This document shows, one piece after another, positions 22,530-44,695 of a DNA stretch of 64,000 nucleotides. The notes beneath the pieces are model-generated. The model did no database searches and was not told where the DNA came from. It saw nothing but the letters and a program-made list of their open reading frames with translations. The stretch lies in contig NHNW01000034.1 of the NCBI GenBank assembly GCA_002786025.1, positions 248,001 through 312,000 on the forward strand, read 5' to 3'. The first letter of the stretch is position 1, and every line of letters starts with the position of its first letter. Source of the stretch: Zasmidium citrigriseum (lineage: Eukaryota; Ascomycota; Dothideomycetes; Mycosphaerellales; Mycosphaerellaceae). The translations under genes were made by a program, and so were the position numbers.

Positions 22530-23583
22530 GTATACGATTATTAGATACTATTAATAAAGGCTAAGAGAGTCTCTTTAAAGACTTAGGTTATTAGAATAAT
22601 TAAAATAGGCTTCCCTCCTTTACTAGATACTATACGCCTTTAGGCTAAGTAAATTATCTATAACTAGCCGTCCTTTAACCCTAAGACTTACTAATCTATT
22701 AGATCTAATTAGGTAAGTAGATAGATAGAAAGAGACTCTAATCTATACGTATATTAGACTAAGGTAATAGATATATACTAGAAGAATATTAATAGTAGCC
22801 TAGAGGTTATTAAAGAGTAGTTCTTAATAATAGAGCGTATAAGGAAGGAGTATAATATCTAGCCTAAGGATAAGTATAATATAGACGAGTCTAGCTTTAT
22901 ACTTAGTATCTATAAGAGAGCCGTTTAGTATATTATTAAGGCGAAGGAAAAGGCTACTATTATATAGTCTAGTAATCGCGAGTAGGTATCTACGATTAAG
23001 GTAGTATCTATAGCTAGATAATACGTTACTCCTTTCTTCGTCTTCCGAGCTAAATAACTTACTACTAGCCTTCTCGTAGACTATTCGATATTACTCTTAT
23101 AACTTAAGGCTAGCTTTATAAATACTAATAATAGCTAGAGTAACGCGAAGGTTATAGTCGACTAGCTCTAGTATTTTAATAAGAGAGTACTACTATCGAA
23201 GCCTAGCTAATAGTAACTACTTATTATAGACGGCTATAAGTCTTATAAATTACTCGCCTTTATTAACTATACCCTTAGCGAGAAGATATTATATATATAC
23301 CTACTCTTATACTTAACCTACCTACTATAGCTACTAGACGTTAGAGTCTTTAATCCCCTAAAGTACTTCTATAGTTATAAGCTTAGTAAGTTAACTCGCT
23401 ATAATAGACTTACGGAGGTAACTAAGACGGACTTTATAATAATATATAGGACTATTAAATTATTAGTCTTTACTCTAGAGACTATTAAATTATCGTTTAA
23501 GGCGACTAGCTTATACCCCTTAGATCTACGGCGAGTTATCGATAGGCTACTAGCTACGTTTATAATACCTATTACTCTACTAA
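22530..23583 (+). pseudogene. element A transposase, 5' part (pogo-type DDE)
   Basis: Read in the frame that ignores TAA/TAG, this part shows the pogo/Fot1 DDE_1 landmarks: NIDESSFIL near 22,890 (first Asp), IDGYKSYK near 23,235 (second Asp, normally followed by His where RIP has left Tyr) and LLDVRVFNPLK near 23,340 (third Asp). All three catalytic Asp codons survive. The frame reaches the ACTAA duplication at 23579-23583 and resumes at 44701. The true start codon is not identifiable because ATG has mostly become ATA. Known relatives move by cut and paste into TA sites. The 5' limit given is approximate. Confidence 0.8.
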
Positions 23584-23795
23584 TATAAGGATATCTAAGC
23601 TAAGAGAGCCTAAGGTAGCGATCTATAGCCTCTCTACTAGTACTCTAAGGCTATACTAGTATCTAACTAGAGGCTTAGCGCCTATACTACTTTTTAGGAG
23701 GTTTCTACTTCTCCTCTTTCGCTCCTTAGATAATACTTAATCGGATATTCGTACTACTTACTTATATTGCTATTTCCTACTCCTACGCCCTTATA
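23584..23795 (+). repeat. 5' LTR of element B
   Basis: 212 bp, starting tataagg and ending cttata (TG...CA ends converted to TA...TA by RIP). Preceded by the duplication ACTAA. Confidence 0.92.
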
Positions 23796-23999: not shown

Positions 24000-26295
24000 C
24001 TAATTCGTTATAGTAACGTAATAGGCGAACTCTCTCTAAACTACTAGAGAATAATACCTCCTCTCTAGACTACTTCCTCTACGCCTAACGACGACGTCTA
24101 CGACTAGCTAGGCTACGTTACGCTCCTATAATAGTAGAGGAACGTATCGACAAAAGCCGCGAGTATAGTAGTACTATAGAAGATACCCTAGGCTATAACT
24201 AAGACGCTCGAGATACCTAGTTTAGTACTAGTATTAACGCTTTACCTCTTAGTAGTATATAACGCCTAGAGGAACTACGAGACGCTATCCTATAGGCCTA
24301 GGAGCGCTAGTTTAAAGAACTATCTAACTAAGATACTAGTACTATAACGGCTAAATAGCTTAAAGCGTACGTAAAGAAGCTAAATACCCTTTATAGTATT
24401 CTCGAACTTAAGAAGTATAAACGTACCTAGTTAGATACTAGAGATAACGTTTCCTATACGAGTAGCTACTATAAGACCTCTAAGACGACCTTAATAGAAC
24501 GCTAGCTCTAAAGACTTTTCGAAAAAGGAAGGGTTAATAAATTAGAGACCTATACTATCTAGGCCTACTAACGCTAGGTTAAGAACGTTAATAAAGAGTT
24601 CGAAATCTTTAGCTATACTAACTATAATACCTATTAAAGAAGCTTATAGATATTAAAGAGTATATTATATAATAATATTACTAGCGCGGTTAATCGTCGC
24701 CTCGATTAGAAGAATAAAAAGGGAGACCTATACTAGGCTAAACTATAGTAGATCGTCTAAGACGCTATATAGAGCCTAGCTATCTACTAGGCCGCCCTTA
24801 TAGAGGTATTCTTCCTATCTAAGATTACGGAAGGATAGTCCTACTCCTACTTCTATACCTATATAAAGGGGTTAGAAGACTAAATATCTAATAAGATTAA
24901 ACCTAAGGACCTCTATATCGACTTCTACTTCTTACGCCTACTAACGTAGATACGTAAGAAGATAATCGAACTAGAAACCCTTAAGTCTATTAAGGATACT
25001 AACGAACTATTCTTAAGAGCCTACTAGATCGAATAATCCCTAAGCTCCTCTAGTAATAGTACTACGCTAAACCCTAGCTATAGGCGTACTAGTATAGTAC
25101 TAAGCGCTAGATAAAACTAGAACTCTAGGCCTAATAACTTAGGTTCTAATAAGAAGGACCGCGAGAACTATAGATAGCGAAATAATCGTAGTAGCGAGAG
25201 ACGCCGAGACGATAGGAGGGACGATAGACGTCCTAACTATCGAGAGTACTCCTTATATAGGCTACTAGCGCCCCGCCGTAATACTACTACTAGCGTACTA
25301 GGGTAGACGCCTTCTAACGATTCTCGTCCTACCTACTATAGCGTTAACGCTATCGAAGTTAAAAGCGATTCGGACTATAATAATATAGGAAATAGTAACC
25401 TCTAATTATAAACTTATCTCCTCTATAATTAGGGAAAACCTTATAAGGGAGGTAGAAGAGGATTGCTATAGATATAACTATTACTAGCGCTATAGGACCG
25501 ATTACTCTCTACGCCCTCGTTAATAGCGAAGCGTAGTTAAATCTTATCTCTATATACGCTACTAGGTAGTTATCTCTACTAACGTTAGATCTTCCTACTC
25601 TAAGGGCTAAGTTCCTTAACGATAACCTTATAACGCTATATAAGGCTTACTTAGCTACCCTCGCTATTAATAATAGTATAGGGAAAACGAGAGAGTTAGA
25701 GTAAATCCTTTAGACTAGTACCTTTATAGGCTATAATCTTATACTAGGGTAGGACTAGCTAGAAGATACTAATCTAGCTATTAGCTTCTAAGCTAGGACC
25801 TTTACGTAGTCGCTACGGGACTCCTCTAACCCCTCCGAATCCTCGCGAACGTCCTAAATACTCGTAGCTATTATAGACGGTACGGCTAGCTTCTAACTTC
25901 CCTTAAGGGAGTAGCTCGTAGCTTCTATACTACTAGACTAACTATACGCTAACGACGGCTCGAGGGTAAACTCCTCTAAAGTAGATAGACTATAAGGAGG
26001 AGAGATTCCCTTCGTAGAGTTAGCTATCGCCGAGCCTACTACTATATTTACCCTCTAAGGAGGTAGAAACTAGGATCCTACGACTATTAACTCGAACTAA
26101 TAAGGCTACTAATAGTAGACTACTACCGTTACGATCTATAACTAATATAAGGCCGCCTACGTATAGGATCCTAATTTTAAAGACCTTCCCTAGTAAGTCC
26201 TTCTAGCCTTACTAGCTATAGTAGAGATAGAGTACCTCGTAGGCGTTCTACTAGAGTACTACGACTTCGCCGACGTCTTTAATACTAAGCTAGTA
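24000..26295 (+). pseudogene. element B gag and aspartic protease coding region
   Basis: Ignoring TAA/TAG, the frame from about 24,000 to 25,400 is a Lys/Gln/Glu-rich helical protein followed by an Arg/Ser/Asn-rich segment, as expected for the nucleic-acid-binding end of a fungal gag. The protease follows: ALVNSEAQLNLISIYAT near 25,510 sits where the active-site Asp-Ser/Thr-Gly is expected, and ILG near 25,741 begins the late conserved strand. The catalytic Asp codon reads AAT (Asn), the change expected from RIP. The frame runs into the TAGTA duplication at 26291-26295 (DFADVFNTKL) and continues at 39615. The gag start is approximate. Confidence 0.72.
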
Positions 26296-26401
26296 TACTA
26301 TAGGGTAGGCTAGCTTACCCTTATAGCTTCCTAGCTTAGTATACTAGCTTAGACATATACAATTATATTACGAGTTTATAATACACGTTTAGTGCCTAGT
26401 A
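26296..26401 (+). repeat. 5' LTR of element C
   Basis: 106 bp from tactataggg to cctagta. It differs from the 3' copy at six sites, all transitions in CA/TG context. Preceded by TAGTA. Confidence 0.9.
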
Positions 26402-27430
26402 AATAGTAGCTAAGAGTAGAGTTCGACTATAATTTTTTCGTTTATTATTATACAAACGATACTAGGGATTCGAAACGAGTCTAGGTAAGGCTATCGACGC
26501 GAGTTCTACTCGGCCTAAAAGCGTACCTTACGACCGCCGTATACCCCTCTACTACCTATAGTGCTCTAGAAAGGCGCTAACCTAACTATCTTACTACTCC
26601 GCGAAGGTCCTTTCGAGCTAAGCGCGTCGATAGACCCTTATCTACCGCCTTACTTAACCTATTACCCCCTCTAAACTACGAGTACCTACCTCTCGTAACG
26701 CGTTACGTTAACGCTTAGCGCGGCTTCCGTCTCGACTTCGACTCGATATCCTACTTTCCCTTAATACTCTCTCTTAACAACCTACTAATACCTTCCGTAA
26801 TATTAACGATACGGTATCTAGTATCCGCTAAGGTATACTCGTCGAATTCGCCCTCTACCTACTTAGTAATTTCGGCCGCTACTTTACTCGTTAATCTATA
26901 TAAGCTAGTAGTACTCTTCCTACCTTACCTAAACCTAACTTCGTAACCCTCGATAGTTTCGCTTACTCCTTATACTAGCACGTCGACAGACTAGTCTATA
27001 TAAGTAGCTTAAAGGCCTACTTATACGCTCCGACGTAGCTAAGCTAGACTATCTAAGTTAATACATACGAAACGATTCGAGGCCCGTACTAGAGCTCCTA
27101 GGTATAGAAGAGTAGAGGCGTTTTCTCCGCCTTTATACGGAGCTCCTACTTCGTTACTACTAGTATCCTAAGAATTAGAAGACCGATTAAACGTAGATCT
27201 TTAGCGAGAGTCTCGAGTAACGTACCTAAGCTCTTTTAAAGTAGTACGGTCCCTTACTAACTTAGTATCGGTAGTAACGTACTCGGTTAAGAAGTATAGC
27301 TCTAGACACTCGAACGAAGAGTATAGCTCTAGACACGAACTTATCTAACCCGCTATATAAGGCTTAGCTTAAAGTTAATCTATAGATCGGATTCCCGAGC
27401 GAGTAGCTTCTTTAATCGAAGGAACCTATT
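26402..27430 (+). other. element C leader between 5' LTR and gag
   Basis: About 1 kb with no frame I can assign. A tRNA primer site should lie at its left end, but RIP has blurred it. A 17-bp direct repeat (agtatagctctagacac) occurs at 27293-27309 and again about 27 bp later. One copy of the recurrent 12-mer agcgcgtcgata is at about 26,620. Confidence 0.5.
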
Positions 27431-30400
27431 ATAGTAGCCCGCTTCCTTAATAACCTTATATTAAGCTAGATCGTATACCTAGCGTTTAGGAGGTTTATCT
27501 AGTTCGACTATTACCGTAACGCTAGTAAGCAAGTTAATCTCTCTAAGAGCTCTAGTAGCGAAGAGTCTAACGATTCGGATATTAGACCGTCTATCGAGTA
27601 TCTACCGAGCGCCCTAAAATCTAACCGCGTTTAACTATACCCTCTAAAGCTAATCCTCCCCTTTAAACCTACCTCTTTAACGAGAGATAGAGAGCTCTAG
27701 GACTTTACTAAGCTTATCGACAAGTACGTCGATCGAGCTATAGTAGATTATAACGCCGCTTAGGCTAGTAGTAGTTAGTACACTAGTAGATAAGGCCTAG
27801 CGGGGTAGACTACCGTAACTAGTAGTACTATAGTAGTAACTATAGGAGTAAGAATACCTAGTACGTTCGCTAATACTATACGAGATAAGGATACTAACTA
27901 GCTAGGCTTTACTAAGGAGTAGCTCGCTTACCTACGGAAGATCTAGTAGGACTCCTACTAGACTAGCCTTTAGTAGCGTAGGGACTCTCTACGTTAGGAG
28001 AATCTACCTCCCCTTAGCTAGTAGAATCCACCTAGTTAGAATCCACCTCCGAGATAAAATACCCCGCTACTACCGTAGTAGAACAACGCCGCGGATATCG
28101 ACGCGCTTAGGATATAGATAAATAGGCTCGAAGAAATAATAAGGTAATAAGCTAGCTACTAGAATACCGCTAGCTTCCCTCCTTAAAACTTCTAACTAAT
28201 ACCGCCCTTCGGCTATCGACCTACCCCTCCGTACTAATAGGATCTAACGTAGGCCTTAGTACCCGCTATAAACGCTAATCCGCCCAAGTTAAGGTTTAAT
28301 CCTAAGTATATAGGCTATTTCGACCTAGATACGAAAGTTACTAGCACCTAGGGACTTATTAGAGGTAGAAACATATATAGAGATATAGGCGCCTTTATTA
28401 ACCGCGTTAAAGCAACGCTAGCATAGTTTAATTATCGCGAGTTACGCCTCGGACTGTCTCTCTACCTTTAAGGCCGAGCTTCTAGATAGTTTAATAATAC
28501 GTTAAGCGACGAACTACGAGAGTAGATCGTTAAAGGCGAGCGCGTCGATAGGTAGGCTTCTAAGCTAGATTCCGCCTTCAAGCCGTTTATTACTAACGCC
28601 TAAACTAAGCTAGACTAGACTTATTGGAATAAGGTATATATTAAGAATAGCTTTGTACTATCTAACTACATGTATACTATAATAGATATCTTATAACGTA
28701 GTAGTAAAGAGAGCTAGTACGAACAGTTATACGACGCTTAGCTCTATATCTATTACCGACTACGAGGCGCCGTACGAGCCCCTAACGAATTTACTACTAT
28801 CGAAGAATTTATCCGCGCGATAGATAAGTAGATAGTAACGTAGCGCTAGTAAGATTAGGCCTACCTAGAGTAATAGCCTAAACTAAACTAATTCTATATT
28901 ATAGGTACGTAGCCCTCGAATAGAGCGACAAACTTAGGCCCTAGTAGGTATATCGACGTGCTTATACCGTCGACTCGTAGTAACTTAAGTAACGCTCCGT
29001 AATACTTTATATAACCCTCGTAATAGCGAAATAACTTCTAGTAGAATCGTAGTAGTAGGAACCGCGGTAATTATAGTAGCTTTTCTAGCCCTAGGAATTC
29101 CTACTCGAATAACCGCTAGCAATTTAATAGCGGGTAGTTTAATAACGGCGGGTAGTTTAATAACCGCGAGTAGCTAAAAGGCCTAGGGAACTAAGCTTAA
29201 CTCCTAGCTCCTCCTTAGTAACTTACAATTACGGATAGTAGGGAGTAACGAAGTAGCGGAAACTTCTAACGTTAAGGCTAGTAAGGCTACTAAGGCCGGT
29301 AAACGGTAACGCTATACAATTAGGACGGCGAAGTAGTAACCTTCTTCGCTAAGGATTAGCTAGAGGTTAAGTCTCCCGTAGTCGTCTAGGAATCCGAGGA
29401 AGAGGAAGAGAACTTCTAGGACTCGAACTAGTACTAGGTCTATAACTTTAGCTACTACTACGAAGCTAAAGATAGCTACTACTAGCTAGATAACGGAGAA
29501 GGAGGCTACTCTTAAGACGAGAGAGAAGTCTTTAATAACGCTTAGTAGGATTTTTATAACGCCCCTAAGATTCTAGACGTATAGGTAGAGCGCCTAGTAG
29601 CTAATACTAATCTTATTATTTCCGGTCCTCCTTAGAGAACCGTTAAGTACACTAAATACTAACGTAAGTTTAACTCTAGTAATAAATTACATAAGCACTT
29701 ACGTAACGAGCCTAGCTGCTAGTCGCATAATAAGAGCTAGACAGGCTTTAACGGCTTAGTAATTCCGTTACTCGTAGTTCAAGTCGATAACCTACTAGCT
29801 AGTATATCGACGTACTTAGAGGAATCTAACTTCGTCCCTCTAGAGCGCCCGTAACTAGAGCCTCCCCCGCTAGACCCTTAGGATAAGTTTAAAACTTTGT
29901 TTCAGACGCTCTTTACTAATATAACTTATCCTAATCCCTTCGGCGGAGCCTAAGCTCTAGAGATTATTAACGTACCTACGGAAATTATTCCTTATACGGC
30001 TAATACACCTAAAGGAGATCCCGCCTACTAGTTTAGAGCGTATAACATTGTCGAAGCGATATATATGTTTTCGCTATATACCGTACTATATCGAATTTAC
30101 CTAGATACTAGTAATCGTGTATCTATAGTACGCGAAGACTAGCTCTACGAAGTCCTTAGTAAGGATAATATTTAGACATACGAGAATCCTCTTAAGTTTA
30201 TAAGTTTAGCTAGTACTACTACGAATAACAAATAGGTTATACTTCTAATATACTTCCCCGCGAAGAAACTAATAGGCGAGTAAGTCCTCTCGTATATCCG
30301 CTAGCCTTACCGTATCGTAAAAGACCTTCCTTATAATCTTCTACTCGGTTTAGATATTATAGTTCTAGTAGGATTTTCGATTAACCTCGAAGCTAGCTAA

Positions 30401-33400
30401 GCTACGATAAAACGTAACGTAAACATAATAATAAAGTTATTAGTACGTCCGCGTTCCGCGAATCGAGTTTAGTAGAAGGTTAGGTCGATATACCTAGAAG
30501 TTATCCTAGTACGCTATCTAAAGCGTATTATAATCCAGCTAATATACCTTAAGGACCGCGACTACGAGTTCTAGCCTACGGAAGACAATATCGCCTTCCT
30601 TAGAAAAGGCGGCCGATTTATCCCCTATATTATCGACGCGACTACCTATACGATTAAGGTCTATAATCCGACTAACTAAAAGCTTAAGATCGCTATATCT
30701 TAGACTCTCGGGTCTCTTAAAGAACTCGAGATTAACGGATATTATCGTATTAATACCGACACCCTCTCTCTTAATCTCGTAGATATAGTCGAAGGAAAAC
30801 GCCCTACCCTCGACTAAGAGTAGAAGGATCTCCCTAAGATAGTACTTCCTAACGGTGTAATAGTATATAGTACTCTAGAACAAGTAGTAGCCCTATAGAA
30901 AGTAGTAGAAAAGCACCTAGAGCTATAGAGAGAGAATACTAGCGTCGCTAATATACCCGAAGAAGAACGTATAGAAGTACTACTTCAAGAGGGTTAGGAG
31001 AAGCACAAGTAAGTTACTAAGGTGTTTAAGCTTAGCGCTCGCGATATAAAGGTTATAAACGACGACTATAACAAACTACACGCCGAAGGCAAGATAAAAT
31101 AGGCTAATAAGCTAAGTCTACTTACCTAGCCCTACTTCGTAGTTTAGCGCACGATTTATAACTAAGATAGAATAATTATATAGAAGCTACGAGTAGTAAT
31201 TAATATTCGAGGACTAAATAAGATTTCGGTAAAGGATATATACCCCTTACTACGTTAGGACGAGATCTTTATAAAGCTCTTTAGCAAGAAGTTTATTAGT
31301 ACTATCGACGCGAGGGCTATATTCTACTAGTTCCTTCTTAAGCTTTTAGAGTAGTAGAAGTTCTATATTAATTCGTATCGGGGCTAGGAAGTTCTTCTAG
31401 TTACTATAATAGGGTACTACGGTAGTATATAGTATATCTAGAGGACTATAGAGACGTAGTTAAGGGACTTTATCTTCGCCTACGCCTATATTAATAATAT
31501 TATTATCGCTTCTAATACGTTCGAGAAGTACCTCGAACACTTAGATACAGTTTTTACTAAACTTAATAGTAAGAACCTTACCTTAGTACTAAAGAAAGTA
31601 TTTCTAGCCTTCCCCTCTACCCGAGTCCTTAGTTATTAAGTATCTGGACTTAGTATAGCTACTAACTCCGAGAAGATAGTAGCGCTAAGGAATATTATTA
31701 AGCTAGTCGACGCGGTCGATCTAGAGGCGTACCTAGCTTTAACTAACTAGCTACGTAATAAGATCCCCTACTACTCCTCCTTAATAGAAGCTTTATACGC
31801 CGCTAAGGTCTATATACTAAAGGAAGTTAAGGACATAAAGAAGGGCCCTACCCGTACGAAGTACCTACGGCGAAAGATTATCCAATAGACATAGGAGATA
31901 AATATCGCCTAGGATACGTTATAGGAATTCTAGGATCCGGCGAATAATACTCTAACTGTTCTAGGAGACGGTAAGTTTAAGCCTCGGTTTAATAAGCACG
32001 GTAATCTAGTTTAGTAAGGCGGAAAGAGTTTTACCTTCTACGCTAACTCGAAGCGGCTACTATACGTCGACGTAGACTATTCGAAAGACTATAGCTTTAG
32101 AATAATACTATACTACGTCGAAGGCGATCCTAAGCCTATTATAGAGACGGAGGCGACCCTAGTCTAGAGGAAAGATAATATCCTAAAGGACTTCGTCGAC
32201 TCTACCTCTTAGCTAAAGCGGACAATATTATAGCTACTCTATAAGATCTAAGTTATCGTATTTAAGAGTTATATATTAATGGGAGCGGAGTTACGATACT
32301 AGCTAACCGAACTAGAAATAGCCGGAGTATTATAGGTAACTAAGAAGTTCCGCTACCTTATCGAAGTAGCTCCTAAGATATATATCTTTATAGATTATAC
32401 CGCCGTAACTACGATTACGAAGAAGTACTATATTACTATAACCGTTTTAAGCGAGAAGCTTAATACGAAGCTAATTAACGCCTCTATATACCTATTAGTA
32501 TTTAGAAATCTAGAAGTACTCTATCGACCTAGTCGGATCTATATCGTACTAGATACCCTAAGTAGGTTAAAGGCTCTAAAGGACCTAGATAAGGCCCGTA
32601 AGCTAAATAAGAGTGCCCTTAAGGATATTCTAGTACTCTTCGTCGATACCCGATAATTCGTAGATAAGGAGAAGCCTATTAAGGAACGTATACTTAATCT
32701 CTATACTACGACTCTAGTTACTATATCGGATAAGTTTAAAGAGCGACTTCGTTAAGGGTACGAAGACGATAAACTATAGCGCCGCTTAAAGAAGGTTCTT
32801 AAGAACGTTTAAAAGCGTTAGCGGGACTTACGTAAGAAGGAGTAGGTGTCTTCTTAAGATAAGCCCGAGGAGTCTTCTTAAGATAAAGCTAACGAGGGAG
32901 CTCGAACGGAATAATAGTCGGAGCGCGTCGATAAACGTAAGGTAATAAGATCCGGCCGCACCGCCTTTATATCTACTCGCACTAAAGTTAATAGTAAATA
33001 GATACCTACGAGTAAGATATAGCCTAGGCTAGAGAAGGCAAAAGATCTAGATATCGATATACTATAGCTAGAAGGCCTTCGCTTCTTCCTTAAAGATAGC
33101 CTTATCTTCTATATCGATAACTCTAAGTTACTTTACTCGAGACTTTATATACTAGACTAGCTTACTAAAGAAGTCTTCGAGATAGTCTACGACAACCGCT
33201 TTTACGTAGGTTTTAATAGGGTATATAACTACCTAACCGTATCTATCTATATTAGGAACTACACCGCTAAGCTCGAGAAGTATATTACGGAATACAAATC
33301 CTATAAGGCGCTACAAACACTACGTTATAAACTATTCGGCTATATAAATCCTATCGATATACTAGCCTAGCTAATAGTAGTAGTCGCCGCCGATTTTATT

Positions 33401-34960
33401 ACCTATCTACTACCGATAGCGGACGGATTTAATATACTACTTACGATTACTTATAAGCGCTTAAAGCGAGTACTCCTAATAGCTAGTCGATCGACGTAGA
33501 CTACTAACTAGTAGGTAGATATTTAGCTCGCTACTATCTAAGAGCGTAGCTAGGCTATACCGATTAAATAGATCTCTAATAGGGATCTAAAGTAGTTAAG
33601 TACCTTCTTCCGTAGAGTAATACAATTACTTAACGCCGAGCTTTTAATATCTACGGTATATTACCTATAGACTAATAGTTAGAGTAAGAGAACGAACTAA
33701 ACCGTTAAAACTATAATAAGGTTCTTTATCTCTAAGAACGTTAGAGCCGACTAGACGAATATACTTCCTAGCCTATACTCCTACTTAAACTCTAGTAAGA
33801 ACGCTAGTACCTATATCTCCCTAGACTAGTACTATTTCGGCTTTAATCTTAATATCGACGCCTTTATTAGCTTAAGACAGCTCCTAGAGGAGGACTTCGT
33901 CTAGCTTCGCTAGTAGTATTACTAATATACTAAAGAGGTAATCGCCTTCGCTAATATTAGGATAAAAGAGTAGTACGATAGTAGATACTACCCTATCTTC
34001 TTCGAGCCTAGGGATATAGTATACCTTCGTCTTTATAAAGGATATAAGGCCCTAGGAGAGTATTATAAGTACGGAGCCTAACGCGTTAGACCTTTTAAAG
34101 TCCTCGAGAGAGTCGGTTAACTCGCCTATAGGCTCGATATTCCTAAGGGAAAACGTATCTACCCTATAATCTTAGTCCTTTAGCTCGAACTAGCCGCTCC
34201 TAGAACAGTTCTATAGAACTAGTCTTCTACTAAGGCAGCTATACCTATCGACGCGGCCGAAGCTATAGAAGACGGTAGCGATTAGCCCTAAGTTATAGAA
34301 GTACTACTTAGTAAGAAGATAGTAGGCGATAGACCGTACTATTTAGTAAAATAGTAGAACCTTTCTACCTTTAGTAACGAGTAGGTCGACGAGGAACTCC
34401 TTATACCCGCCTACGAGGGATTAGTTCTCTCGTTTAACGAGCGCCGTAAGAAAGAAACGATCTATAAGATTCCTCTACGTAAAGCTTACCTACTAGCGGC
34501 TAACGCTCTACTTAATAAGTAGTATTAAGAGAAAGCTACTTATAATCTATCTAGAGAGTATATTACCCTCGAGTCGATAGACCCTCTCCGCCGCACTTAG
34601 AGTATAAAGAGCTTAAGCGAACACTCGGTAGCTAGAATACTAGCGTCTCCCCTAGCCGAAGGCGGCCTCGACGGTTCTACGACGAGTACGTCGACACCCG
34701 ACCTACTAGTAGGACTAGATATTAGTAACGATACCTTCGCTAACGCTAAAGCGGCTAAGATAGTAGTAAAGTTACCTTCGATATTATAGGTAGAGCGGGA
34801 TTAATATAAAAAGCTAGAGGAGGAAGTTCTATAGGACTAATTCGTTCTACGAAGAAGTAAGCGCCTACTACGACTAGTAAAGGGCAAAGACTTACTAGAG
34901 ATACTAGCCCTCTTTGTTTAGATTATTAACTCGCCTACCTCGGGTAGGAGCTAATATCTA
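27431..34960 (+). pseudogene. element C gag-pol polyprotein in one frame
   Basis: One frame (codon starts at positions giving remainder 2 on division by 3) covers gag and pol; its interruptions are TAA/TAG at former Gln or Trp codons. Gag spans about 27.4-29.2 kb (GYFDLDTKVT near 28,310, then an Asn/Gln/Ser/Arg-rich tail with no zinc knuckle that I can see). Protease is around 30.3 kb (NLLLGLDIIVL). Reverse transcriptase begins near 31,187 (LRVVINIRGLNKISV); its catalytic box reads YINN near 31,490, both Asp codons lost. RNase H is near 32,060 and integrase near 33,390 (AADFITYLL), with RRVIQLLNAELL downstream. Ty3 elements usually separate gag from pol by a frameshift or stop; here none is needed. 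Limits are approximate. Confidence 0.75.
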
Positions 34961-35180
34961 GATTCTACTAGCGTTACTTTTATAATATATTTTATGTAGT
35001 ACGAGGAGGTTTATTAACCTAGCCTTAATATATATACGGATATTATCTTTTACTTAACGCTTTTATATACACTAGTACGAGCGCGTAACGACTACGCTAT
35101 ACTATTTGTTTACTACTTACTCGCTTAAAATATTTCCTCTAGTAAAGCTTTAACCTATATTAAATAATACCGTAATCTAA

Positions 35181-35516
35181 ATATCCGACACGCCCCTAAA
35201 CTAGCTAATACTCGAAGACGAACTCCGCCGCTAATATTACGCGTAAGAAGCCCGCTAGCGAGATATCGATACTACGCTTAAGGCCTACGATAGAGCGACC
35301 GCGACGCTCGAGCGTCGCTAGCGCAAGGAGGCGCCTAGATCGTAGTAAGAGATTAACGACTAGTATAAGAACTAGAATACTACTATCTACGCCTTCTTCG
35401 AGTATAAATACGGTAATAACCCCTACCCGCTCGGCGCCTATAACTATTTTATTAATAACGTTAAACTCGGTCGTAATAATACCGAAGAGGAAGGCCGCGA
35501 CGGCTAATAGTAAGGT
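35181..35516 (+). pseudogene. element C short third frame, unknown function
   Basis: A frame begins at ATA (35181, ATG before RIP) reading SDTPLN, then a Gln/Arg/Glu-rich helical segment (RDIDTTLKAYDRATATLERR) and a more compact end (FFEYKYGNNPYPLGAYNYF), stopping at clustered TAA/TAG near 35,515. It overlaps the start of the next, longer frame by about 35 bp. About 110 codons. It could be a separate small protein or a first exon of the long one. No family is recognised. Confidence 0.45.
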
Positions 35517-38500
35517 AGCCCTAAAGCGCTCTCGAAAGAAGGACACTATAGTAGAGGCGCCCGTTAAGTAGCTAACTAAGCGAGCTATACTAGTTAAGAA
35601 TAACAAGTTAAGTAAGAGCGCCGCCTAGATAAAGGGCTCTAGAGCGAAGAAGACTACTATAGATAAGAAGAAGAGTAGGCCGAAGGACCTTATAATAGTA
35701 TAGATTAAGAAGGAGAAGATAGCGGAGGATAGAACTATCGAGATATAGGAAGAATATAAGAAGTAGATAGTATAGGCTATTAGCGATAGCCGTAATAATA
35801 TAGACCCTTACTTACCTAAGTATATAAGCGATATTAAGGTCGTACTCTCCGTAGAATTCGAGTACACCTTTACCGAGGATCTATACTAGCTAAGTAAGAA
35901 AGCGATCGAGAATAATAGTATAGGTAAGAGAAATATAAGAGTAGATATCCGTTACGAGCTAGCGAAGTAGATAAATAACCTTAATAAACGCGAAGACCTT
36001 CTTAAGAAGCAAGTCGCGTAGAATACGGCGATTAAGAAGCTTAAGGCGGTATACATAGTTTCGTAGAATAATAACGTAGCTACAAATAGCTTAGGAATAA
36101 AGAAGCTACTATATAAGTTTAATAAGTAGGCCTTCGACTTAATAGCTATCTACTAGAGGAAGCTCTACGACTAGTACGAATATATAGTTAGGTATAGGGA
36201 CTACTATATTACAGAGAATAACAATTAGATCTAGTATACGAAAGACTAAGTCGAAGAAATCGTCTATCGTACCTAGCGTACGCTAGACGCAGTCTCTCTA
36301 TACGAGATCTTCTAGAATAGTACTAACGCGGACGAGAAGAAGCTCGCCGACGATATTAAGACGGTCTATAAGCTCGATAAATAGCCTAGCGGAAAAGGCT
36401 CCCTCGACGATAGAGCTAATAAGTATAGTAGAGAAGAGAGCCGCCTAGCGCTACTACGAAACCTCTACTTCTACGAGTTATCTAGCGATACGTAGCTAGT
36501 ATATTTCCTTAACAATAAGAGTAAGAAGACTACGTCGATAGTACGCCGCGAATACCTTTACCGAGTAGTATACGGCTAGGAAGGCGGTTACCTACTATAT
36601 ACCTAAATTAAGGGCGATACCTCGATCGATAGCGAGATAGTCTAGATTACCTCGGACTAGACCTAGATAGGGCAATTGCTTAACGACTAGCTCGCGTCGT
36701 TCGACGATATTACGCTCCTCTAGGGCGCGATAGCTACGAAGGTCTAGGAGCGCTAGTATCTATTTTGTACGATACACGTCGTCGTAAAGGCTAAGGAATT
36801 CTATATCGTCTACTACCTTTTCGAGTACCTACTTTCGGAAGGCTAGTACGTCCTTAAGAATATTAGTAAGGATACTATTCGCGAAATATTCAATCTATTC
36901 GCTAGCTCCGCAATATAAGCGAAAGATACTAGAGAATTAGCCTTATTAAAGGACTATCTAGACGTTAAGGGTTTAATCGAGGAGCTATATATAAAAGTAG
37001 CCTAGTACCCGTAAGACGAAGTAGATCCTAGCTAGAGAGACGTTAGCTTAGTAGAGCGTAAAGCCTAGATAAGCACAATATTCTACTTAATACTATACGT
37101 AAGCTAAATCGGCTTCTAGTAAAAGGCAGACGGCATAATCCCTACGAAATACTCTAATAGCTTCGTATAGGTTATAATAAGGCTATAGGAGTACCCCTAG
37201 ATATAGTAGCTACTAGTTATCGACGTACTCTACGTACTATACCCCGATAGTCTCGACGCAGTCCTACTAAAGGATATCCCTTACTAATACCTAACGGCTA
37301 AGCGTAACCGAGTTAAGGAACTAGCTCCTCTAGCTCTAGAGAGAATACTACCGCTAGAATCTAAAAGCGAGGAAGAGGACTTAGAGGCGAGCGCGTCGAT
37401 AGCTAAGGTCGTAAAGAAGTTAGCCGTTAAGAAACCTAAAGCTATTAAATTAAGGGATATCGAAGTTAGAGCTAGCCTAAAACTAACGAAGAAGGGCAAA
37501 GGTAAGGCTAAGGTCGTTAATACCGAGACTCTAGACGCTACGCTAAGGAAGAGAGGTAAGAAAGCGCCCTCTCCCGAGTAAGACGAGGACGAAGACGAAG
37601 ACGAAGAGATACTCCTTAGTAATTCTAACGATAAGGCTATACTACTTAGGGAGATCCGTAAGAAAGAAGAGCGCTAGAAGTAAGCTAAGGCTTCGTAGTA
37701 AGTAGCACTTAAGCGCGGTAGACAGTACGAGGAGTACTTACTAGCGATTAAAGCCGTCGAGTACTAGATAAAGTAGATAAAATACTTTAAGGACGCGCTA
37801 GCTATATAGTTCGCCTATACGATATACTAGCGGTAGCTATAGCTCGATAAACTTCGGCGCCCGCTCTAGACTATATACGACTTAGGCTAGAACTAGAATT
37901 TTAGCTCTAATACGTAGCTAGCTAAGGATACAAAGGCTCTCCTTATAGCTATTAAGCGCTTCCAACTAAAAGTGTAGTAGAGCTTAAACTATAACGTTCG
38001 ATTTACCTTCGAGGCTAAGGGTTAAGTAGCGCTAGAGAAGACTATAAACCTTTAGATCTAAGCTTAATAGTTCGCCGAGATAGAGCTAGAGTAGCTTCGT
38101 AAGGAAGCCGACTTCGAGCGCGTCGATAAACTCCTTAAGAGCCGTATTTCGTAGATATCTAAAATAAGGCTAATATCCGTAGCTATTTAAGTTTAGCCCT
38201 AGGACGCTCTCCCTATTCTAGACGGTAATACTAATATCGCGCACTTTATCCTCGAATTTAATACTCGAAAGCCTAAATACACTATACGTATATACGTTAC
38301 TAATACCGAGTAGGCGCGCTAGACTAAGGACTCCTTAAGTATTAAGGACCGTATCTAAGAATAGCTAGTATATATATAGTACTACAACCTAGACTTCTTG
38401 TTTATTAGAGATACCGATAACGATACTGCGTCGATAGCCCTAAGCTACTAGACCTTAACTATATACGAGTCTAACGTAGCTCGATTCTCTAATACTTAGA

Positions 38501-39441
38501 AAGCTAAGCGTACCGTAGAGATTCGAGCCTACTAGCTAATTAAAGTTATAGAAGAAGAGCTCGACAGCTACACTTTAGACAGGGTAACGGAGGTGCTTCG
38601 AGTATGTTTACTAGCTCTTAACTTCTACTAAGACCGTAAGAAGATACTAGAGATTCGTAGCCTCTTATAGAAACTCGATCTTCTTATAGTTAAGGTAGGC
38701 TACTTCGACTCTAGAAACTAGTAAATAGTGAAATAGTAGAGACACAACTATCCAAATCTCGGCGCAATCGAGTTGGAGTTATAGCTTCTCGATAGTACCT
38801 AGCTATAGAGCCCGAGTACGTCGACGCCCGCCGCTAGGGAAAGCGAGTAGAACGACGAACTACTATATACCCTACGAGAAAACGAAGTCTACTACGAAGT
38901 CGAAGACCTTATCGCCGAGATAGACAAATAGTTCGCTAGACGCTAGCTACGTAACTAGCTATAGGAGATAAGTAAAGCTAATCGATACTATACTATCTAC
39001 GCTATCGCCGTATACGCTAGAAGCAAGAAGCTAAGTATAACTATAATTATCCGCTACTAGTAAATCCTTACCGATATAGTAAGGCTAGACAAGTTAATTA
39101 CTAAGAGCGGAAAGATATAGACCGACGGAGGAGCGAACCTATACCTATTAGCCTAGATTATTCGTAACTAGGATACCCTTAAGGCCTAGGTTTACCGCCG
39201 CTAGAAGTCCGTATTAGATACTAAGGCTCTAGTGCCTAATATCGATAGCGATTCCGAGCCTAACCTCTCTAAGAAGCGCAAGTAGCGTAAGTAAGCTAGA
39301 GCTAATAAGGCACGCGCGGAGTAAGTAGTAAGCTAGAAACTAGTCGACCCGAGCGCGTCGATAACTATAAACAAGCCTACTAGCTTCTACGAAAACTAAG
39401 ACTACGACGGAGGATAAATAGAAGGGTGTTTAGCTATATAG
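35479..39441 (+). pseudogene. element C long extra ORF after integrase, about 1,320 codons, unknown function
   Basis: One plus-strand frame runs for about 3.96 kb; I followed its codons throughout and the only interruptions are TAA and TAG, never TGA, as expected from CAA/CAG/TGG under RIP. A likely start is ATA at 35479 (ATG before RIP), followed by the nuclear-signal-like PKRKAATANSKVALKRSRKK. Near residue 637-690 a Lys-rich stretch (KKGKGKAK) precedes an acidic run near 701 (DEDEDEDEE); a second basic patch (KKRKQRK) lies near 1262. Most of the rest looks helical and Glu/Lys/Gln-rich. No signal peptide, membrane segment or enzymatic motif is seen, so it does not look like an envelope gene despite its position. 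Codon-position bias persists to the end, near the 3' LTR. Confidence 0.7.
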
Positions 39442-39503
39442 AGATATTTTCTAAGTAATTAGAGTACTCGAGGCCGAGTATATTTCTCTCGGCCGAGGGG
39501 ATT

Positions 39504-39609
39504 TACTATAGGGTAGGCTAGCTTACCCTTATAGCTTCCTAGCTTAGTATACTAGCTTAGACACATATAATTACATTACGAGTTCATAACACACGTTTAG
39601 TACCTAGTA
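39504..39609 (+). repeat. 3' LTR of element C
   Basis: 106 bp, followed by TAGTA (39610-39614). It keeps several CA dinucleotides that the 5' copy lost, and the reverse at one site. Confidence 0.9.
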
Positions 39610-42600
39610 TAGTAGGTATTATCGCCTAGTACTCTAAGTACGACTATACTATCGAGCTAGAGGAAGATAAGAGCCTACCTTAACTACTAATCTATAACCT
39701 TTTATAATAAGAGCTTACTATATTACGCGAGTATATTAATAACGCCTTAAAGAATAGCTAGATTAGGCTAAGTAAATCCCCTTATAGTACCCCTATCCTC
39801 TTTATACTAAAGAAGGATAGTAGTATATAGTTATACGTTAACTATAGAGGTCTTAATAAGATTACGATTAAGAACTACTACCTACTACTACTTATTAGTA
39901 AGCTACTAGACCGTTTAGGTAACGCGAAGGTCTTTACTAAGCTAGACCTTAAGGACGTATACTACTAGCTCTAGATCTAGTCTAGTAACGAGTAGAAGAC
40001 GGCCTTTAAGACGAGATATAGCTTATTCGAATACCTCGTTATACCCTTTAGGCTTACTAACGTACCTACTATATTCTAGTCCTATATTAATAAGGCTCTA
40101 GCTAGCTTAGTAGATAATATCTATATTATTTATCTCGATAATATCCTAATCTACTCCCCTAACCCCAAGACGTATAAGGAGTACGTCTAGTAAGTCCTTA
40201 AGAGGCTTAGGGAATAGAAGCTATTTACTAAACCCTCGAAATACGAGTTCTATACTATAGAGGTTAAATTCCTAGGCTTTATTATTACCCCTAACGGTAT
40301 AAAGATAGATTAATTAAGGGTTACTAGTATTACTAACTAGCTAGTACTAAAGAGCTACTAAGACGTTTAAGTCTTCCTTAGATTTACTAACTTCTACTAC
40401 TACTTTATCTAGGGATATTTACGGCTTATACGCCTACTTAACGAGCTACTCTCTAGTAGTACCCTTACGCCTATAAAGAAGGGACGGAAAGCTATTATAA
40501 GACCCCTATAGTAGTAGACTAATATAGTAGCTAAATCCTTCGAAACTCTTAAGAAGGCGTTTACTAAAGTACCTCTACTTAGGTACTTTAATCCTAGGCT
40601 ACTAATTATAGTAATTACGGACGCCTCTAACGCGGCCTACGTAAGTATCCTCCTATAGCCTAACGACTCCGATTTACTATAGAAATACTAGTACTCTATC
40701 GCCTATTATTCGAAGAGCTTTATTAATTACGAGGTTTAGTATAGTACCCCTAATAAGGAACTTATAGCTATCTCGGAATACTTTAAAATATAGAGGTACT
40801 ACCTCGAAGGCGCTATATACCCGATCTAGGTTATAACCGACTACTATAACCTTTAGTACTTTATAATAATATAGAGCCTAATAGCTAGGTAGGCCTAAAT
40901 TATAGAGAGGTTAGCCTACTATAATTTTATAATCGAATATAAGCTAGGGAAGTTAAATCCCTCTAATAGCCTATTTAGAAGGCTAGACTACTTCGCTAGC
41001 TTTAAAGAAAGTACTAAAAAGTATTAACTTTAGGGAATACTACTAATCCTATAGTAAAAGTTAGGAGCCTACTCTACTAAGGATAGTTATAGCCCTATAG
41101 CGCTACTAGAGTACTCTTATATAGACCCTAAGAATATAGCGGATACCTACCTCGAGGGAACTAGGTAGTCTAATCCCCTACTACTTACCGCCTTCGAAGC
41201 TAAATAAAATAGTAAGGCTAAAGAGCAATATAATAGTACTTCTAATACTATAGAGTAACTACTCCTTACCTAAGCTAGCCCCTACTCTACTAGTAGACTA
41301 ATAAGTCGTTTAGTACTACCTTGCTTCCTTATTACTATAGTAGTAAAGGATAAGTCGTCCTTTAACGCTAAACTACCTAAATCCCTTCTAAATCTTATTA
41401 AGGAAGTCTAATAAAGGGACGCCTTCGTTTAAGATATCCGAGAAGCGGTTATAGCGAAGAGACGAGATAGGTTAGGTAAGACTCTAGAAAGTACTAAGGA
41501 CTATACCTTTAATACTAATAGCCTCCTATAAAGGAAAGGTCGGGTATACGTACCCTAATCCTTAGCCTTACGTATAGAGATACTATTCTATAACTACGAT
41601 AACCCTATAGTAGGCTACTACGGCTAGCGACGTATATAGGCGATTATCTCGTCTAAATACGAGTAGAAAGGTCTCTCTAAAGACGTTCGTAAGTACTATT
41701 AAGAATACGACGTCTACTAACGAGCTAAAAGTAAGTACTACTAGCCCTACGGTAAGCTTTAGCCTTTACTAGTACCTACCTAGCTCTAGTCCTACCTCTC
41801 TATAGACTTTATTACTAGCCTACTACCCTTAAAGGGTTTTAATAGTAAGGTATATAATTTAGTACTTATTATCGTTAATCGATTCTCTAAGTTTATATAG
41901 TATATACTAATAATAAAAGATATCGACGCCCCTAGCCTAGTAGACCTATTTTACTATATAGTTATCGCCCTTACTAGCCTACTAGACGATATCGTCTTAG
42001 ACCGCGGTTCGGTCTTTATATCTAAGTACTAGAGCGCCTTCTACTACTACCTTATAATTAAACGTAAACTTAGTACTACCTTCTACCTATAGACGGATAG
42101 ATAGACTAAGCGTTAGAACTAGTAACTTAAAGCCTACCTTTATATATACTATAATTAGGAATAAGATAACTAGGCGAGGCTATTATTAACTATAGCGTTC
42201 GCCTATAACTCTAAGACGTATACTAGCTATTATAAATTACCTATTAAGGTAGCGTTTAGGGTACCCCTAAATATACTAGATAGTATTCGATATAAATACC
42301 TAATAGGGGGGGGGAAGAAAATAGATAAGCTTACTAAATAGGTAACTAACTAGCTTCTATAACGACGACTCGAGTTCGATAAGGTAGTAGAGAACCTCTA
42401 GTACGTATAAGAGCTATAGACTAAGTACTATAACTATATAGTACTAGCTAAGTACTACGATATTAGTAAGTAGGTACTCCTAGCGGTAAAGAACGTTTAT
42501 ATACGGCGGCTATATAAGAAGCTTAATAATAAATACCTAGGCCCTTTTATAATTATTAAGCGGATTAGTAGATAGGCGTATAAGCTTAACCTACTACTAT

Positions 42601-42990: not shown

Positions 42991-44483
42991 AGTCCTCTTA
43001 CTACTAAATTACTATTCGAAATTTCCTTTATATATAAAACTAAGAGATTAAAGGATTTATTTATAAGTTCTCTCTATTTACTATCTATAGACTACTACGA
43101 CTATTTCGTAGTCTTTCTAAGGCTACGCTAACCCCTCTCTACTATAGATAGTAAAACCTAAGAACCTAGAGCTAACGAGCTTCTATTATTACTACCCTAT
43201 AAACGCTACTAAGAAAGCCTTAACGAGTATACTAGCCGTAGTAGACGAGACGCTTCTCGCCGTTATTTAGCGTCTAAAGTACCTACTACTCCTATACTAA
43301 GTCCGCTATAATATTAGCTAGGTAGGAACCTAATAGCTCTCCGTAGCTATCCTTAAAGGCCTTCTTATTCGCCTTACGACTCTTTCGACGAGCCTAAATC
43401 TACTTTAGCTAGGCCGTCTTATCGATCTTCTTAACCTCTAACTTAGCTATAACGTCCTTCTTAAACTATATAATAGTAGCGAATACCTTTAAGATATAGT
43501 CGTAGAAGGCGCTAACGCGGCGCTATATACGCTTAGCGTTATTCTAGACGGTAGGGTAGATAGCGAGTATATATAGGTACTCGAGGATATTAGCGTAGCG
43601 CGCGAGCTTAGAGGGGATCTAATAGTAAGATTAGTATAGATAGACGCTAGATAGGAGTTAAAGAACTTATAGTAGTATAAGAAGGCTTACTACTACTTAC
43701 TTTATAGCTAGTATAAGGAGTACTATTACTAGTAGAGTACTTCTCGCTAACTAGTAGCTACGTCTACTACTAAATAGTAGGGACTAGCTACTAATAGTAG
43801 ATATACTCGTAGTAGATAGTACTATAGCGTACCTTTAGAACGCCCTCGAGAGGAGGGGGATACTTATATATATAGCGAATCTTGGACTAACTAATACCCG
43901 CCTTATAAGGACTATACGCCTATAGCGGTATCTCTATATCTACCGACGGAACGGGTATATCGCTAAACTACTTAAGTAGGCTAGCTATACCTATATCGCC
44001 CTACGATCTATTACTACTACTACTACTACTAAGGGTATAAGAAGTACTACTTATATTATAGAGTAGAGTCGTAGCGAAGTCGTTATTAGTAGGCGTATAT
44101 AGCGAGGTATTATTATTATTATTCTATCTATTAATAGCGTTCTAACCTAATATAAGAGGGAAGCGTAATAGACGGATAGTTAATAGTTAGTAGTAGTAAA
44201 GAGAAGAAGGAACTAGAAGAAGAGGCGGGCTTTTATACTAATAGTAGTATAGGCCTAATAGCGCCGCTACTATATACCTCTTACGAGCCCGCTCTACCCT
44301 CTTTTATAAGGGAGATATTTACTAATAGTAGGAATTATATACTCGGCTTACTAATAGCGCTATACGTACGTACTAAGACAGCTCTACTGCCTTTATAATA
44401 CTAACTTAGTCTAAGTTAAATAGCGAACTTACTTAAGTTAATAATACGACCTAAGAGTAGGCTACTAAAGAGAGGAGGGATAA
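42991..44483. other. element B 3' region between pol and LTR
   Basis: About 1.5 kb after pol. The plus strand has no assignable frame; an antisense frame is described separately. Trinucleotide runs (tac repeats near 44,015; tat repeats near 44,110) and a purine tract (agagaggaggga) just before the 3' LTR are visible. Confidence 0.6.
43270..43665 (-). pseudogene. antisense frame in element B 3' region
   Basis: On the minus strand, ignoring TAA/TAG, about 130 codons read as a helical, basic protein (PSKLARYANILEYLYILA, then KKDVIAKLEVKKID and RRKSRKANKKAFK). The composition and lack of TGA suggest a real former coding frame, opposite to pol. No family is recognised. It could equally be part of a separate gene captured by the element. 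Confidence 0.35.
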
Positions 44484-44695
44484 TATAAGGATATCTAAGC
44501 TAAGAGAGCCTAAGGTAGCGATCTATAGCCTCTCTACTAGTACTCTAAGGCTATACTAGTATCTAACTAGAGGCTTAGCGCCTATACTACTTTTTAGGAG
44601 GTTTCTACTTCTCCTCTTTCGCTCCTTAGATAATACTTAATTAGATATTCGTACTACTTACTTGTATTACTATTTCCTACTCCTACGCTCTTATA
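44484..44695 (+). repeat. 3' LTR of element B
   Basis: 212 bp, followed by the duplication ACTAA (44696-44700). Five transitions separate it from the 5' copy. Confidence 0.92.

Follow-up and report, generated by a model that had tools for sequence, protein, structure and literature searches.

Additional open reading frames (aORFs) lying between pol and the 3' long terminal repeat (LTR) are known in LTR retrotransposons and are common enough to have been reviewed, with functions that are mostly unknown; those in sense orientation are described as env-like (PMC7264820; this and the other sources are cited from their accessible parts). The fungal case given there is brtn of the Botrytis cinerea element Boty/BcGypsy1, an antisense frame between pol and the 3' LTR (PMC7264820). 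Further aORFs are annotated in Botrytis Gypsy elements (PMC8365987) and are set beside the present locus by description, not by sequence. Fungal Ty3 elements have been described together with 'complex' ones that gained extra domains via nested insertions, and the accessible part of that account mentions no gene of the kind described below (PMC3248453). The window analysed here is a stretch of 64,000 nucleotides of Zasmidium citrigriseum (G000:C77:248001-312000; contigs are given as C-numbers and coordinates as window positions) from a 44.4-Mb genome assembled in 148 contigs. At 26296-39609 it holds a 13.3-kb Ty3/gypsy-like element, riddled by repeat-induced point mutation (RIP) and hereafter called element C, which belongs to a lineage arranged as LTR, gag-pol, ORF2, ORF3, LTR. 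Judged from its sequence, ORF3 is almost certainly a genuine gene of this element.

Like the Ty3/gypsy (Metaviridae) chromoviruses of fungi, element C has LTRs, 5-bp target duplications, an RNase H and an SH3_Tf2-1 integrase end; unlike them, it reaches 13.3 kb, carries two extra genes behind pol and gave no significant match to the RVT_1, rve or chromodomain models. A big internal region that holds additional ORFs or domains is shared with the giant Gypsy elements Ogre and Burro (PMC6431247), which, unlike element C, come from plants and planarians and were compared by description only. ORF3 resembles brtn in being an additional ORF of a fungal Gypsy element between pol and the 3' LTR, and differs from it in being a sense frame, of ~1,320 codons. 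In orientation and position it is like the sense aORFs of plant and insect elements, but these are env-like, some with transmembrane domains (PMC7264820), whereas ORF3 carries basic motifs and lacks a convincing membrane helix. By position, ORF3 qualifies as a sense additional ORF, but it lacks the envelope features that were tested. A sense ORF of ~1,320 codons with no convincing membrane helix, common to several fungal Ty3 lineages, is new as far as our limited searches go; no account of such a gene was found in the open-licence literature, supplements excluded (e.g. the accessible parts of PMC8365987, PMC4210507, PMC6431247, PMC3248453, PMC3538342 and PMC7264820).

Element C lies in an AT-rich island (~22-46 kb) saturated by RIP, where the (CA+TG)/(AC+GT) ratio is 0.00-0.24 per kb vs. 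1.03-1.65 in the flanks. The original prediction had read a long frame behind pol and had taken the lack of TGA as support for it. This argument was rejected: the frame 35479-39441 indeed has 107 TAA/TAG and no TGA, but over the same 3,963 bases TGA occurs 0 times in four of the six frames and once in the other two, and the TG dinucleotides number 11 vs. 625 for TA. The absence of TGA is uninformative, because RIP-saturated DNA nearly cannot contain this triplet. Concerning stop density, the 107 stops of the sense frame are more than the 93 and 92 counted in two of the antisense frames.

The frame itself and its place in the element, between pol and the 3' LTR, stood up on other grounds, namely transversions, omega and the presence of the gene at most pol loci. 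The G counts by codon position are 371/162/329, and the excess of G at position 1 over position 2 in frame +1 is positive in all thirteen 300-bp windows from 35601 to 39201 (0.07-0.25), exceeds that of the two other plus frames in each of them, and drops to -0.01 in the next one, at the LTR. The same-register antisense frame scores above the sense frame in three of the thirteen (36201, 38601 and 38901), so periodicity alone is not decisive. RIP yields transitions only, never transversions. For this reason, transversions were counted by codon position on a protein-guided alignment of the ORF3 copies. Their numbers at positions 1/2/3 are 225/215/396 for C77-C13, 238/209/403 for C77-C103, 61/47/160 for C13-C103 and 2/1/0 for C77-C140; the third position thus receives 396/836 in the first pair and 160/268 in the third. 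The transversion omega (omega_tv) of the sense frame is 0.48 (C77-C13), 0.49 (C77-C103), 0.47 (C140-C13) and 0.20 (C13-C103), while four wrong frames, antisense frame 1 not included, range from 1.155 to 2.002 (C77-C13 and C13-C103). ORF3 is under purifying selection, for which the original prediction had proposed a check. Since pol has an omega_tv of 0.135 and 0.112 (C77-C13) against 0.20-0.49, ORF3 is constrained yet faster-evolving than pol. The sense product matches C13 and the sequence shared by C61, C103 and C137 with 875-882 bits, vs. 377-442 bits for the antisense frame, which, together with omega_tv, sets it apart from the antisense brtn. Other copies are open slightly beyond 39441, and the true stop may lie at 39460-39462.

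A search with pol returned at least 29 matches on at least 13 contigs, representing at least 14 loci (C1 counted as two). The region behind pol was inspected at 12 loci, the second C1 locus being covered by its search match only and the short reverse transcriptase matches on C116 and C70 being left out. ORF3 was found behind pol at 11 of these 12, i.e. nine independent sequences once contig-end duplicates are merged. In the close family it is present in six places out of six (C77, C140, C13, C103, C137 and C61), and the more distant loci are C46, C1:102618-104321, C1:114549-115346, C115 and C83; at the close and the distant loci alike, it has the strand of pol. Three of the close-family places are one ORF3 sequence, because the ends of C61, C103 and C137 share an identical stretch of 7,067 bases, with zero mismatches, starting exactly at the C61 contig end; this sharing is probably an assembly overlap that inflates the copy counts. 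Recombination between C103 and C137 was considered and dropped, as these contigs share one assembled sequence. The proposed search for copies lacking the region was made within this genome: every close-family place carries it, and a more distant locus on C45, discussed below, has no detectable ORF3.

Among the distant loci, C115 was detected by the A1 profile with an E-value of 1e-8, and C83 was missed by this profile but reached 347 bits after C115 had been added; the two scores (367 bits for C115 and 347 for C83) are mutually dependent, each locus being the other's best support. In the profile search, control stretches (the older outer element surrounding element C, gag-pol and a flank) yielded no match with an E-value below 0.18. 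No ORF3 was found outside element loci among the own-genome protein-search matches (nine each at E 0.01 and E 1).

The features of element C are collected in the table. From its sequence, ORF3 is predicted to encode a large protein whose N-terminus is basic and whose two conserved domains are joined by a charged linker, and which lacks a convincing membrane segment. The basic N-terminal motifs, the Lys-rich and acidic stretch and the basic tail announced by the original prediction were all seen in the alignment and the charge scan, the tail following domain B at the end of the frame. C77 and C140 each have two clusters resembling a nuclear localisation signal (NLS), at residues 3 and 16, and C13 has one at residue 8; the C46 product has a comparable SKRKK stretch. 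Membrane segments were sought by a Kyte-Doolittle (KD) hydropathy scan in 19-residue windows, with a cut-off of 1.6 and stops scored as -2.2. The maximum is 1.30 in C140, 1.60 in C77, 2.04 in C13 and 2.02 in C103, compared with 2.12 in the pol frame. The claimed lack of a signal peptide or membrane helix was upheld in that none is convincing, with no window above the cut-off in C77 and C140 and borderline values in C13 and C103; this, with the basic N-terminus, is unlike the envelope-bearing elements of the errantivirus/Athila type. Near the C1 element, at ~100.0-100.5 kb of that contig, lies an extra fragment in another frame that matches ORF3 domain B (profile 839-988).

Features of element C (window positions; '.' for no strand; E-values from Pfam scans)
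Feature	Position	Strand	Evidence or remark
Target-site duplication TAGTA (left)	26291..26295	.	repeat of 39610-39614
5' LTR, 106 bp	26296..26401	+	94% identity with 3' LTR
gag-pol	26900..34870 (both ends estimated)	+	frame +2 (codon start mod 3 = 2); third-position transversions
RT_RNaseH	~32249-32425	+	Pfam 1.4e-5
SH3_Tf2-1	~34013-34168	+	Pfam 2.2e-6 and, in a second scan, 3.8e-7
ORF2, ~103-108 codons	35181..35489	+	frame 0; conserved frame overlapping ORF3 start
ORF3, ~1,320 codons	35479..39441	+	frame +1; periodicity, transversions, omega, homologous copies
ORF3 N-terminal basic segment, NLS-like motifs (residues 1 to ~89)	35479..35745	+	alignment; charge and motif scan
ORF3 domain A (~residues 90-620, bounds by eye)	35746..37338	+	alignments; C46, C1 and C115 profile matches
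ORF3 low-complexity Lys-rich and acidic linker (~residues 621-740, by eye)	37339..37698	+	alignment; charge profile
ORF3 domain B (~residues 741-1250, by eye)	37699..39228	+	alignment; C46 and C1 matches at profile 836-1193
Polypurine-tract-like GAGGGGATT	39495..39503	+	directly before 3' LTR; C13 and C61 purine-rich at the equivalent position
3' LTR, 106 bp	39504..39609	+	direct repeat of 5' LTR
Target-site duplication TAGTA (right)	39610..39614	.	directly outside 3' LTR

Concerning homologues elsewhere, PHROGs gave two ORF3 matches, each from one of the four members (E 0.23 and 0.92), which were taken as chance. Three protein-database searches returned no match, with the poor sensitivity of RIP-damaged queries and with two of the searches scoring the best 7,984 and 7,987 candidates; in IMG/VR, none of 550 pattern matches was confirmed. 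ORF3 represents a protein family without a counterpart in the searched libraries (Pfam, PHROGs, PDB and the protein database).

As to its role, ORF3 is tentatively read as a fast-evolving accessory protein that belongs to a divergent Ty3/gypsy lineage and acts in the nucleus, a possible rather than a probable function to which the NLS-like motifs are the only pointer, since no homologue with a known role was matched. These motifs are also the only hint at the chromatin- or host-factor-directed role that the original prediction had put forward. The protein would be translated downstream of ORF2, either through re-initiation or from a spliced or subgenomic RNA, and would reach the nucleus through its basic N-terminus. 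There it could serve as the accessory factor of the element, either aiding the complementary DNA/integration complex or opposing host silencing. A host-facing role fits, because the evolution of ORF3 is fast but constrained. Every ORF3 copy found bears many RIP-type stops; the elements must therefore survive in the face of an extreme defence, and for this a selected host-facing gene would be a candidate means. That a ~4-kb sense gene is selected in close copies and recurs in distant Ty3 lineages of a single RIP-active fungus points to a need for it in the lineage.

Several observations weigh against a nuclear gene conserved across the lineage. The scanned NLS-like motif is missing at the N-terminus of C103 and is not evident by eye in C1, and hydrophobic windows above KD 1.6 number four in C13 and nine in C103. 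ORF3 has no usable Pfam or PDB match, hence no homologue of known role. Omega was computed among close-family copies only, and antisense frame 1 also has a lowered omega_tv, 0.72 for C77-C13 and 0.48 for C13-C103, which is taken as a mirror of the constraint on the sense frame. In C46 (557500-563500), the match switches frame at profile positions 846/849, with domain A and the start of B in one frame and the remainder of B in another, reflecting either an indel or two proteins. Finally, the C45 pol locus has no detectable ORF3 within 7 kb from the end of pol. On this 14.6-kb contig, the region in question (G000:C45:6001-13000) shows no clear coding periodicity behind pol; the gene may have been truncated here or may be truly absent.

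Among the alternatives to a nuclear accessory protein, a second structural protein, i.e. a Gag-like protein or particle component that works in the cytoplasm and is not a nuclear regulator, is rather unlikely without being far-fetched: the large size, the charged linker of a nucleic-acid-binding type and the two conserved domains would suit it, but ORF3 has no similarity to the gag-pol frame of its own element (phmmer --max, E 10). It has no Pfam gag or capsid match either, which is weak evidence, since the RIP-damaged gag itself matched no gag model.

Capture of a host gene, or a separate transposon lodged between pol and the LTR, is slightly less likely still. DNA similarity falls sharply at 35483 in the comparisons with C13, C103, C137 and C61, and the third-position divergence is higher in ORF3 (396/1270) than in pol (163/827 and 117/831), as a capture would have it. 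The search for boundaries proper to an inserted region, suggested by the original prediction, thus met with this drop on one side, but no inverted-repeat pair was found at both ends of the region. Moreover, no copy lies outside element loci among the nine own-genome matches per search, no homologue came from Pfam, PDB or the protein database, and the gene order is repeated in distant lineages. A capture may have predated the split of these lineages.

A more ambitious version of the nuclear reading would make ORF2-ORF3 an ancient accessory module of a whole fungal Ty3 lineage, with ORF3 as a new nuclear family that opposes the genome defence of the host (by RIP or by heterochromatin silencing) or guides integration, evolves fast in an arms race and is exchanged between copies by recombination; taken as a whole, this is a long shot. 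A diverged envelope-type gene, comparable to the aORFs that some elements of plants and insects carry in sense orientation, is very unlikely. Such a gene would agree with the sense position between pol and the 3' LTR, where aORFs are often env-like (PMC7264820), and with the few windows above KD 1.6 in C13 and C103, but the N-terminus is strongly basic and not signal-like, and the maximum of 1.30 in C140 stays below the 2.12 of the pol frame, which is expected to be non-membrane. That the open frame is a RIP artefact with no gene behind it can practically be dismissed: neither the absence of TGA nor the stop density singles out this frame, but the third-position transversion bias, the frame-specific omega_tv, the excess of sense over antisense bits and the conservation in distant lineages do.

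The short frame that the original prediction had placed at 35181-35516 is real and overlaps the start of ORF3, but its extent had to be corrected: conservation in frame 0 ends at ~35489 and then moves to frame +1, and the frame is a separate gene, ORF2. Its amino acid identity is 79-81% among three aligned copies, and it is present in six of six close-family places and in C1 (36%). The C77 and C13 copies, the latter starting with an ATG, differ by 5-6 transversions per 300 nt. An ORF2 profile detected C83 (E 1.5e-5), gave C115 only E 0.3 and found no match in C46. No convincing Pfam or PDB match was obtained for ORF2. Matches of the profile to LINE-1 ORF2 chains (E 0.056 and above) and of a single copy to GMC_oxred_C (0.12) were taken as chance. 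The overlap of the ORF2 end with the ORF3 start suggests that ORF3 may depend on coupled re-initiation or another non-standard start.

The copies also differ in history from one part to another. C77 and C140 are separate insertions, with TAGTA vs. TATAG as 5-bp duplications; between their ORF3 sequences there are 177 transitions and 3 transversions. At 150 sites (35479-39438), C140 has C/G and C77 has T/A; the context is CpA/TpG at 82 of them, in line with RIP, and CpG at 64, for which classical RIP alone does not account. Third-position transversions between these two copies are 0/1,314 in ORF3, 60/1,291 in pol and 32/826 in gag. As none occurs in ORF3, the 3' part has a more recent common ancestor than gag-pol, and such a mosaic is what template switching between copies would give. 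Between C77 and C13, they amount to 31% in ORF3 on the protein-guided alignment (396/1270) or 22% on alignable DNA only (173/777), 17% in pol (280/1658) and 5% in gag (38/824). ORF3 was either exchanged as a module or is faster-evolving even at silent sites. The gradient from gag (~5%, 26900-29400) to pol (17%) and ORF3 (22-31%) suggests mosaic elements.

The limits of element C are as first proposed, 106-bp LTRs with TAGTA directly outside both ends enclosing the frame. The two LTRs have six differences, every one C/T or G/A, and the 5' LTR of C140 keeps TG..CA ends. Within gag-pol, the third-position transversion signal of frame 2 is clear at ~29.3-34.7 kb and weak at 26.9-29.3 kb. RNase H (~32.3 kb) lies upstream of the integrase end SH3_Tf2-1 (~34.1 kb), the order required for Ty3/gypsy. 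With heavy RIP damage, RVT_1 scored only 0.07 with Pfam in element C, rve had no Pfam match in the scanned copies and no Pfam model matched the gag; Integrase_H2C2 gave 0.0025 in C140, below the cut-off. Chromodomain-like residues were seen by eye near 34.3 kb, after the SH3 domain, with no chromodomain match in Pfam.

Around element C, CA and TG are nearly gone over 22000-46300, and the borders to normal gene-bearing DNA are sharp. Element C is nested inside an older Ty3 element, bounded by 215-bp repeats (23581-23795 and 44481-44695) that are 98% identical. The reverse transcriptase of this outer element (39.6-44.5 kb) is far better detected than that of element C, with an RVT_1 match of 1.7e-20.

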